This document shows positions 2,203 through 6,926 of a stretch of DNA of 24,760 nucleotides, one piece after another. A model generated the notes under the pieces. It made no database searches. It was not told the DNA's origin and worked only from the letters and a program-made list of their open reading frames with translations. The DNA lies in IMG/VR virus record IMGVR_UViG_3300037102_000002, positions 1-24,760 of that record; one strand, given 5' to 3'. The DNA is from a virus. Numbering within the stretch: the stretch's first letter is position 1; every line of letters starts with the position of its first letter. Made by a program: the position numbers and the translations under genes.

Positions 2203-3428
2203 TCCTAAATTATAGCCCGCGTCTCAAACGCTTCGCCTATCGTCCGATGGAGCAAGACCGTCGCATCAACATCCTCGAGGGGTCAGTCCGTTCGGGGAAG
2301 ACGTGGGCACTGCACCCAAAGATACTGCAAGCCTGCCGGTACAACGTGAGCGGTTGGCGTGTTCTTACCGGCGTCACGAAGCAGACCATCTTCAACAACG
2401 TCCTAAACGACCTCTTCAACCTAATAGGCCCATCGAACTACAACTACAACCATCAATCGGGGATGCTGCGTCTGTTCGATTCGTCGTGGCTCGTGATGGG
2501 CGCGAAGGATGAGGGCAGCGAGAAATATGTGCGCGGATTGACCGTGGGCGTGGCTGTGGGGGACGAGGTTACGCTTATGCCGCAAGAGTTCTTCCAGATG
2601 CTCCTCACCCGCATGTCGCCCGATGGTGCGCGGTTCTACGGCACAACGAATGCTGGCGTTCCGATGCACTGGCTCAAGACTGAGTACCTGGACAATCAGG
2701 CACTGCGCACGGCTGGGCTGCTGTGGTCTGCGCACTATACGATGGAGGACAACCCAAACCTGAGCCAAGAGTATATCGAAGCGCAGAAGCAGCTCTACAC
2801 CGGCGTTTTCTATCAGCGGTACATTCTGGGATTGTGGGTGGTTGCTGAGTCTTCCATCTACCGCGACGTGCTGGGGCCGCAGTGCAAGTACGACGATACC
2901 AGCCGACCGGAGGGGCTTGAGAACCAGCGGGTGCAAAGGTACATCTTCGTTGACTACGGAACGATCAACCCGTGCGTATTTCTGGAGGCGTTCGACGATA
3001 GCAAGACGGTTTGGCAGGACCGGGAATACTATTGGGATTCAGCGAAGGAGATGCGCCAAAAGACGGACGCGGAGTATGCGGACGACTTCGATGCGTTCGT
3101 GGGGTCAGAGAAGCGCGGCCTGATCGTTATTGTTGACCCGTCAGCGGCCTCATTCAAGCTCGAACTGGTACGGCGGGGGTATCAGGTCAAGAACGGCGAG
3201 AATGAGGTGCTAGAGGGCATCCGGCGCGTCTCGGCTGCGCTCAACATCGGTCTGTACCGCATCCATGCCAAGAACTGCCCCATGACAATCAAAGAGCTTG
3301 AGCAATACGCATGGGATAAAAAGGCGGCGAAGCGTGGGGAAGAGCAACCAATCAAAGACCATGACCACACCCCAGATGCGCTCCGCATGGGGGTTATGAA
3401 GGTGATTCCGAAGTACCGGCTGGGCTGA
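2199..3428 (+). CDS. Terminase large subunit (PBSX/Terminase_3-like)
   Basis: The protein has 409 residues, a normal length for the family. It is the ATP-driven motor and nuclease that packages phage DNA through the portal. The N-terminal ATPase domain shows Walker A GSVRSGKT (28-35) and a Walker B-like VGVAVGDEV ending in Asp122-Glu123. The C-terminal RNase H-like nuclease domain shows acidic positions at Asp252 (FVDYGTINPCVF), Asp313 (VIVDPSAAS) and Asp393 (HTPDALRMG, the usual HxPDALRY ending). The ATG overlaps the stop of the zinc-ribbon ORF (ATGA), and a GGTGAG stretch precedes it. The portal gene follows closely. The function is very secure. Confidence 0.97.
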   Translation: MILNYSPRLKRFAYRPMEQDRRINILEGSVRSGKTWALHPKILQACRYNVSGWRVLTGVTKQTIFNNVLNDLFNLIGPSNYNYNHQSGMLRLFDSSWLVMGAKDEGSEKYVRGLTVGVAVGDEVTLMPQEFFQMLLTRMSPDGARFYGTTNAGVPMHWLKTEYLDNQALRTAGLLWSAHYTMEDNPNLSQEYIEAQKQLYTGVFYQRYILGLWVVAESSIYRDVLGPQCKYDDTSRPEGLENQRVQRYIFVDYGTINPCVFLEAFDDSKTVWQDREYYWDSAKEMRQKTDAEYADDFDAFVGSEKRGLIVIVDPSAASFKLELVRRGYQVKNGENEVLEGIRRVSAALNIGLYRIHAKNCPMTIKELEQYAWDKKAAKRGEEQPIKDHDHTPDALRMGVMKVIPKYRLG

Positions 3429-5873: not shown

Positions 5874-5901
5874 ACGGCCTCTTCGGGGGCCGTTTTCTTT
5901 T
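5874..5901 (+). terminator. Rho-independent terminator with UUCG tetraloop
   Basis: ACGGCCTC (5874-5881), loop TTCG (5882-5885) and GGGGCCGT (5886-5893) form an 8-bp stem with one G-U pair. TTTTCTTTT follows, to 5901. It would close the terminase-portal-minor head transcript before a new promoter begins. Confidence 0.9.
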
Positions 5902-5905
5902 GCGC

Positions 5906-5934
5906 TTGACAGAGAGTACGGGATGGGGTACGGT
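5906..5934 (+). promoter_or_regulatory. Sigma70-type promoter of the accessory islet
   Basis: TTGACA (5906-5911), a 17-base spacer and TACGGT (5929-5934) follow the terminator directly. The predicted start is near 5941-5943, exactly where the structured leader begins. It would express the islet at 6027-6996 and could read on into the protease and scaffold genes. Confidence 0.7.
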
Positions 5935-5942
5935 AACTGCAT

Positions 5943-6008
5943 GGGGCCGTGGGAGACAGTCGGGGCTAGGCCAACCTCGGCAGCCGTTCGACTCGGTAGG
6001 CTCCACCA
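5943..6008 (+). ncRNA. Structured leader RNA with tRNA-like 3' half
   Basis: This 66-base element starts at the predicted transcription start and ends in CCACCA. Its ends pair as an acceptor-like stem (GGGGCC with GGCTCC, one G-U). Near the 3' end, GCCG-TTCGACT-CGGT is a T-arm with a canonical 7-base TTCRANY loop. CGGGG/CCTCG can form an anticodon-like stem with a 9-base loop. There is no room for a D-arm, so this is not a standard tRNA. An alternative fold pairs AGTCGGG with TTCGACT plus an inner GGCT/AGCC stem, under the same closing stem. It ends 5 bases before the AAAGGAG site of the next gene. It may be a decayed tRNA, a regulatory leader, or a novel tRNA-like RNA. Confidence 0.4.
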
Positions 6009-6026
6009 ATTTCAAAGGAGACTCAC

Positions 6027-6122
6027 ATGCTCTACGTCCTCATGGCACCAACCGCAATCGCATTTATCCTTGCAGGCACAATCGAAATGATCGCTGCTCT
6101 CTGGCCGGAGACGAACCTCTAA
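6027..6122 (+). CDS. 31-residue single-pass membrane peptide
   Basis: The gene encodes 31 residues. A strong AAAGGAG (6014-6020) sits 6 bases before the ATG. The peptide is almost entirely one hydrophobic segment (MLYVLMAPTAIAFILAG, then IEMIAALW) with a short PETNL tail. Its size resembles small phage membrane peptides, including holin-like or superinfection-exclusion peptides, but nothing specifies which. The stop overlaps the next start (TAATG), so it is translationally coupled to the ribbon-helix-helix gene. It is the first gene of the promoter-driven islet. Confidence 0.65.
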   Translation: MLYVLMAPTAIAFILAGTIEMIAALWPETNL

Positions 6123-6361
6123 TGCGTAAAGTCGGCATCCCCGTCACAATCCGCATCGACGAATCCTGTCTCGCTATTGCGACCAAGCTGGCGAAAAAAC
6201 AGGGAACGACGATACGCGGGTATCTGCGCGGAACGCTTGAGACTGCCCTGCGGGGAAACGCAATCTTTGTTCACAATGTAACACCGCAACAGGCCGCAGA
6301 GTTGACGGCGGAGTTTGAGCGCATCTTCGGTGGCGCGGGAAGGATCACGGAGGCGAAGTGA
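6122..6361 (+). CDS. Ribbon-helix-helix (Arc/MetJ-like) DNA-binding protein
   Basis: The protein has 79 residues. VGIPVTIRIDESCLAIA followed by TKLAKKQGTTIRGYLRGTLE has the strand-helix-helix pattern of Arc/MetJ-type regulators: a short basic beta strand, then two helices. The C-terminal 35 residues (VTPQQAAELTAEFERIFGG) are an extra helix of unknown purpose. The start overlaps the stop of the membrane peptide (TAATG), and its stop overlaps the next ATG (TGATG). Longer versions of this frame that run back through the leader are unlikely. It may regulate its own promoter at 5906-5934; that is inference. Confidence 0.7.
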   Translation: MRKVGIPVTIRIDESCLAIATKLAKKQGTTIRGYLRGTLETALRGNAIFVHNVTPQQAAELTAEFERIFGGAGRITEAK

Positions 6362-6633
6362 TGACAATGCCGATCAATAGCGACACCTCTATCGCTGACG
6401 AATTTGCCGAAGTATACAAGTCAAGACTGCTATTTTCCCTAATACCTGGGAGAAAATTCAAAGGCGATTGGTACTGGAAAAATGAAGATGGACGCTGGAT
6501 AATAGACAATCCACGCATGAGGATGGAACTAAAAGAATTTATCGGCAATAGGCAGTCTCCGCACATGCACATTGCGGGCATTGAGTTCCTTATAAAAACC
6601 AACCAGGAAATCCACGTCAAGAGAATCCAATAA
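6361..6633 (+). CDS. Hypothetical protein, AT-richer than its neighbours
   Basis: The protein has 90 residues and I do not recognise it. The N-terminal third is acidic (DTSIADEFAEVYKS). A FKGDWYWKNEDGRWIIDN stretch in the middle looks like a small beta fold, and the C-terminus ends IHVKRIQ. The gene is visibly AT-richer and uses more ATA, AAA and AAT codons than the flanking structural genes, which suggests separate acquisition. It is coupled on both sides (TGATG before, TAATG after). It has no link to virion structure, so I treat it as islet cargo. Confidence 0.6.
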   Translation: MTMPINSDTSIADEFAEVYKSRLLFSLIPGRKFKGDWYWKNEDGRWIIDNPRMRMELKEFIGNRQSPHMHIAGIEFLIKTNQEIHVKRIQ

Positions 6634-6926
6634 TGCCGATTCCCCTTCTCATCCTTAGTGATTCTGTAACCTCAACCTCTGGCCTCGGTCGCATCACGCG
6701 CGACCTTGCCCTGCGTCTAGCATCTTGCGGCATTCGTGGCGTTCAACTCGATATGCAGTATTACCACTACGGGAGCGCATCACACCGGCTTGCTCCGCCA
6801 GAATCAGGGGCAGCGCAACGGCACCAGGCTGACGCCGACCGCGCTTACTTTGAGAAAAAGTGGGGATTCCGCGTTGACTCTCTCGAATATGGACATCGAC
6901 CAGCAGACCCAAACTTTCGAGGATAG
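6633..6926 (+). pseudogene. Collapsed glycosyltransferase relic (N- and C-terminal pieces joined)
   Basis: The frame encodes 97 residues. The first 28 read LLILSDSVTSTSGLGRITRD followed by LALRLA. This is the start of phage glycosyltransferases that bind a nucleotide-sugar (SDSPTSTSGLGRITRDLA-type N-terminus), which are normally several hundred residues long. From about residue 39 the sequence changes to QYYHYGSASHRLAP and then ADADRAYFEKKWGFRVD, resembling the C-terminal end of GT2-type enzymes (H.GS...., then NR.YF..KWG). The catalytic middle is missing. The simplest reading is an internal deletion that fused the head of one glycosyltransferase to the tail of the same or an adjacent one. 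The family resemblance is from memory. The product is unlikely to be active. Confidence 0.5.

Follow-up and report, generated by a model that had tools for sequence, protein, structure and literature searches.

A promoter-linked tRNA-like element with kinship to tRNA-Ala in a contractile-tailed phage, possibly a tRNA mimic

We found a 66-nt tRNA-like element with kinship to tRNA-Ala(GGC) in a contractile-tailed phage, in the gap that separates the head-morphogenesis gene from a small operon of accessory genes. The DNA analysed (G000, here called the window) is a virus record of 24,760 bases coding for terminase, portal, head morphogenesis, protease, major head protein and tail sheath. As far as sequence can tell, the element's anatomy, its kinship with tRNA-Ala and its modular presence or absence among relatives are clear; taken as a whole, it is read here, tentatively and with slightly less than even confidence, as an RNA derived from tRNA-Ala(GGC) that is carried as a promoter-linked cassette and acts as a tRNA mimic. 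The features of the region are as follows.

2062-2137: intact tRNA-Ile(UAU) gene of the window, upstream of the terminase gene
5874-5901, + strand: intrinsic terminator closing the upstream head-gene operon (8-bp stem, loop of 4, T-run), kept in relatives
5906-5934, + strand: promoter TTGACA-17-TACGGT, read from the sequence, with the same hexamers in 8 aligned sequences
5916-5933, + strand: direct repeat GTACGG inside the promoter (copies at 5916-5921 and 5928-5933, 12 bp apart)
5943-6008, + strand: tRNA-like element, 66 nt, derived from tRNA-Ala with the D-arm lost
5943-5948, + strand: 5' strand of the acceptor stem, GGGGCC, holding G3 of G3-U70; pairs with 5999-6004
5950-5956, + strand: TGGGAGA, which aligns with the D-loop of E. 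coli tRNA-Ala(GGC); the D-stem lacks its 5' half
5961-5979, + strand: anticodon-like arm with the 9-nt loop CTAGGCCAA at 5966-5974 and GGC at 5969-5971
5983-5997, + strand: T-arm GCCG-TTCGACT-CGGT
5999-6004, + strand: 3' strand of the acceptor stem, GGCTCC, with U70 at 6002
6005-6008, + strand: discriminator A and encoded CCA
6014-6020, + strand: Shine-Dalgarno sequence AAAGGAG of the peptide, read from the sequence
6027-6122, + strand: 31-aa hydrophobic peptide MLYVLMAPTAIAFILAGTIEMIAALWPETNL, read from the sequence, starting with the ATG at 6027
6122-6361, + strand: 79-aa repressor-like protein with a strand-helix-helix N-terminus

Anatomy of the element

The paired ends, the T-arm and the CCA end described in the original prediction were all read in the sequence. 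The acceptor stem has 6 bp (not 7), every one of which is kept in both known versions of the element, and the CCA is encoded, as in tRNA; the T-arm combines a 4-bp stem with a TTCGACT loop that fits the TTCRANN loop of tRNA (RF00005). Compared with the same family, the D-arm is reduced to at most a 2-bp remnant, and the anticodon arm carries, in its 5-bp stem reading, a 9-nt loop with GGC at its centre where tRNA has a 7-nt loop with U33. The 9-base loop of the original description stood, and the statement that there is no D-arm needs the amendment that a 2-bp hairpin (GT-GGGAG-AC) can form in the predicted fold; the anticodon-like stem can also grow to 7 bp around the same 9-nt loop. At the element, ARAGORN reported neither a tRNA nor a tmRNA and Rfam no tRNA at gathering score, and for the version in relative L009 Rfam matched nothing even at E values up to 5, in line with the earlier view that this is no ordinary tRNA. 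Since it has the acceptor stem, T-arm, CCA and alanine identity of a tRNA and falls outside the family in its D-arm, anticodon loop and fit to curated models, the element should be named tRNA-like, not tRNA.

A descriptor requiring a 6-7 bp acceptor, a 4-5 bp T-stem, a TTCRANN loop and NCCA within 55-95 nt matched two sites in the window, the element and the genuine tRNA-Ile gene, compared with 0.01 matches per window strand in shuffled sequence (about one per ~2.5 Mb). The anatomy first noticed is thus confirmed and is not a chance pattern. Overall folding energy was unremarkable (z -0.33; L009 version, z -1.50). The tRNA-Ile(UAU) gene was retained in most relatives covering that region.

Kinship with tRNA-Ala

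In alignments to the phage tRNA-Ile and to 25 tRNAs of E. coli, the element scored best with tRNA-Ala(GGC) (score 28; 200 shuffles peaked at 25.5), the gap in this alignment being the 5' half of the D-arm, with TGGGAGA of the D-loop remaining. When 44 E. coli tRNA genes were searched with a covariance model (R1) built from the two known element versions, the three tRNA-Ala copies were matched weakly (15.8-15.9 bits, E about 0.9), and the other 41 genes gave no match. Besides the elements, these copies and one truncated chance match (16.0 bits) were the only matches at E < 1, and two further loci scored lower than the tRNA-Ala copies. The R1 signal for tRNA-Ala kinship is thus weak for each match and consistent overall. 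The pairs G1-C72, G2-C71 and G3-U70 and the discriminator A73 were all present and invariant in both versions; this is the set conserved in prokaryotic tRNA-Ala, with G3-U70 as the main determinant (PMC9976931). Judged by these comparisons, the ancestor of the element was a tRNA-Ala(GGC), from whose D-arm the 5' half has been lost.

Structure-preserving change in a second version

Only two distinct element sequences were present in the collections searched, and covariation rests on this single comparison. The L009 copy differs from that of the window at seven positions, all by transitions, and six of the seven fall at positions that pair in the cloverleaf. Full compensation is seen at two pairs, 5-58 in the acceptor (C-G to U-A) and 22-34 in the anticodon stem (G-C to A-U); in the T-stem, 41-55 changes from G-U to G-C, pair 23-33 is lost, and 24-32 gains the ability to pair. 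If seven transitions are placed at random, the probability of at least two compensations in the cloverleaf is about 0.003 (one two-sequence comparison); the long hairpin shows one compensation in L009 (P = 0.12). A column-shuffle control on the two-sequence covariation gave an uninformative 123/500. The letters of the D-loop, T-loop and CCA are the same in both versions, bar one loop-edge site. A search for compensatory changes among relatives, proposed with the original prediction, therefore yielded two such pairs and one lost pair, and the structure of the element seems to be kept by selection, with statistical backing for structure-preserving change from two sequences.

These data bear on the reading of the element as a decaying phage tRNA-Ala pseudogene, without its D-arm and on the way to disappearing. 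Kinship with tRNA-Ala with half an arm missing, absence from several relatives, the pair broken in L009 and the carriage of tRNA genes by these phages, such as the intact tRNA-Ile elsewhere, would all suit decay; however, the changes that followed the shared deletion lie in paired columns in six of seven cases and include the two compensations, the loop and CCA letters are almost entirely fixed, and promoter and element appear to travel together (see below). We regard such a pseudogene as unlikely, while giving it more weight than the other alternatives. Of the earlier term 'decayed tRNA', the origin from tRNA-Ala by loss of the D-arm is retained, but the later changes look constrained.

Competing folds

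The minimum free energy (MFE) fold was a long hairpin in the window and in L009, with the T-arm fold lying 2.5 kcal/mol (window) and 1.5 kcal/mol (L009) above it, a gap similar to that in the genuine tRNAs Ala-UGC, Val and Ile. A four-way cloverleaf of the window sequence, with the anticodon arm at 7 bp and the 2-bp D remnant formed, reached -24.3 kcal/mol, compared with -26.8 kcal/mol for the other fold. This closeness in energy would suit a switch between the tRNA-like fold and the long hairpin, as had been suggested, but the inner rival helix GGCT/AGCC lost two of its four pairs in L009 without compensation and the element is absent in relatives. There is also no sign of a switch that occludes the Shine-Dalgarno sequence, because AAAGGAG is unpaired with the element in the predicted fold, and this mechanism was ruled out. 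A fold switch is accordingly rated very improbable; what survives of the proposed rival hairpin is that some long hairpin is slightly lower in energy in both sequences, not its inner helix.

Promoter and downstream genes

As predicted, a terminator closes the upstream operon at 5901 (stem proper 5874-5893, then the T-run), the promoter lies ahead of the element (TTGACA 5906-5911, 17-nt spacer, TACGGT 5929-5934), and a strong ribosome binding site follows just past it. Both hexamers were identical in 8/8 aligned sequences irrespective of downstream content; the site was unlisted in a consensus promoter scan because its -10 matches only 3/6 positions. The first GTACGG copy was found in all aligned sequences, as was the second in the form TACGG, and the repeat is a possible operator for the downstream 79-aa protein. 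This protein (92-99% identity across 7 relatives) had no match in a Pfam search, and its N-terminus is putatively ribbon-helix-helix-like in a structure model with a mean pLDDT of 67. An ORF running through the element (5900-6361) was set aside as coding because the changes follow the pairing and L003 has a ~165-nt insert there. Further downstream, a 97-aa ORF (6633-6926) starts similarly to a full-length glycosyltransferase at the same place in relatives (L007, PF00534), of which it is apparently a truncated version.

The element in an exchangeable slot

The promoter is followed by the element and then the 31-aa peptide in the window, L002 and L009, and by the element, ~165 nt of extra RNA and then the peptide in L003. 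The element is missing from five close relatives that still have the promoter and the repressor-like gene: the peptide follows directly in L010 and L011, a different peptide in L007, a related extra RNA in L031, and the repressor-like gene itself in L012. The 31-aa peptide is thus retained with and without the element, and the element is dispensable for the downstream genes, which removes an obligatory role as leader of the membrane peptide. Absence from relatives that retain these genes had been named as evidence against the original prediction, and the comparison speaks against any obligatory role in cis.

Another explanation is that the element acts in cis at the 5' end of the accessory mRNA, where a stable stem would shield the transcript or flag a site of processing, the tRNA look being heritage. 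This explanation would accommodate four observations: the predicted transcription start falls at the element, both folds pair the terminal 5' G, a long hairpin has the lowest energy in both sequences, and the hammerhead-like core that lies between element and peptide in L003 would separate the two. Against it stand the relatives with the same promoter and genes, the unpaired Shine-Dalgarno sequence, and the conserved CCA, T-loop and G3-U70, for which such a structure has no need; we consider it improbable, somewhat more so than a pseudogene.

The element is letter-identical in the window and L003 despite ~7% divergence of the flanking sequence on either side. L009 has flanks more similar to those of the window than L003's are, and yet its element is divergent. 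This pattern fits an exchange of promoter and element as one unit. Seen across the relatives, the site is a cassette slot that takes the tRNA-like RNA, other peptides or hammerhead-bearing RNA, with a methylase cassette adjoining: in L012, a DNA methylase gene (2330-3222, PF01555) is inserted just upstream of the same promoter between the arms of a 17-bp inverted repeat, which suggests a mobile cassette.

The exact element core was found in IMG/VR in L002 and L003 only, and a T-arm-to-CCA pattern retrieved L009, L002 and L003. Nine more loci came up with a relaxed D-loop/T-loop pattern, and on inspection each of them was put down to chance. The core pattern had no match in genome contigs, and blastn in phages returned a 23-nt terminator-region match and no copy of the element. 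A portal-profile search of genome contigs found no host.

Other structured RNAs in relatives

A complete hammerhead-ribozyme core was found inside the ~165-nt structured RNA at L003:4110-4160, between the tRNA-like element and the peptide, and at L041:2260-2310, beside a terminase gene on the opposite strand. Its parts are CTGANGA, GGC-GCGA-GCC, GAA and ACTG-GAAA-CAGT, with cleavage predicted after L003:4151; the sole difference between the two cores is position 7, the variable one, and the descriptor had 0 matches in 1.96 Mb of shuffles. Rfam gave no hammerhead match on this RNA in L003 or L041, and its cobalamin match in L003 (11.8 bits, cut-off 31.5) was dismissed as chance. Hammerheads in phage intergenic regions are already known (PMC3088659). 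Adjoining the hammerhead-bearing RNA of L041 on its upstream side is another structured RNA (2074-2208, z -4.4); it has an 11-bp helix at its ends and the canonical T-arm sequence CAGGG-TTCAAGT-CCCTG, and was not called as a tRNA. A hairpin, AGCTGRCAGCCGGGAAAGACCGGC, occurs at L003:4195-4220, at L031:1389-1414 and in L042-L050, is usually intergenic, and recurs in the unrelated phages mEp390, Pokken, pAEv1818 and BUCT709.

Proposed role and comparison with known systems

In the preferred reading, that of a tRNA mimic, the element would be carried as a promoter-linked cassette in the accessory-gene slot; transcription would produce it as the 5'-terminal part of the RNA, from which host tRNA-processing enzymes would probably free it. 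Charging with alanine by host alanyl-tRNA synthetase (AlaRS), which reads chiefly the acceptor stem, is also probable; normal decoding is unlikely for an RNA that lacks a D-stem and has nine nucleotides in its anticodon loop. The likeliest use would be in trans, as a tRNA-Ala mimic or decoy directed, for example, at host factors involved in tRNA binding, cleavage or surveillance. The further proposal of a new class, a phage-borne D-arm-less, alanine-chargeable tRNA mimic in an exchangeable promoter-linked cassette, within a slot that also takes other structured RNAs, such as the hammerhead-bearing one (a second T-arm RNA lies elsewhere in a relative), and directed in trans at tRNA-based defences or regulation of the host, is speculative, and we rate it as improbable in this full form. 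If the element is a conserved, mobile, alanine-type mimic, it offers a defined 66-nt molecule for asking whether phage tRNA look-alikes mislead tRNA-sensing defences, AlaRS or translation, and it would mean that standard tRNA finders miss elements of this kind.

A search of mainly openly available journal papers found no direct precedent for a phage tRNA that is truncated or lacks the D-arm. D-armless tRNAs occur in animal mitochondria, and the loss of the D-arm is common to them and the element; to our knowledge, such tRNAs have been described from mitochondria and none from phages or bacteria. Unlike them, the element lies in a phage DNA genome, has an alanine-type acceptor and a 9-nt loop, and is of different origin. 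The tRNA-like domain of tmRNA (ssrA) likewise has no canonical D-stem, and it shares with the element an acceptor with G3-U70, a T-arm and an end in ..GCTCCACCA (E. coli sequence); the element differs in being 66 nt in one piece, too short for the tag reading frame and pseudoknots of tmRNA, which it lacks, and in having an anticodon-like arm. Phage pseudo-ToxI sets a precedent for non-coding phage RNAs that pose as a host RNA and so overcome a defence system (PMC3475682); it imitates a toxin-antitoxin RNA, whereas the element resembles a tRNA, so that the parallel is an analogy, not evidence. Compared with bacterial tRNA-Ala(GGC), the element is not called by ARAGORN or Rfam, has no D-stem and, at 66 nt, combines a 6-bp acceptor, a 4-bp T-stem and a 9-nt anticodon loop, and it shares with that tRNA the GGGGC../..CTCC acceptor with G3-U70, A73-CCA, the TTCGA T-loop, the D-loop TGGGAGA and the loop triplet GGC.
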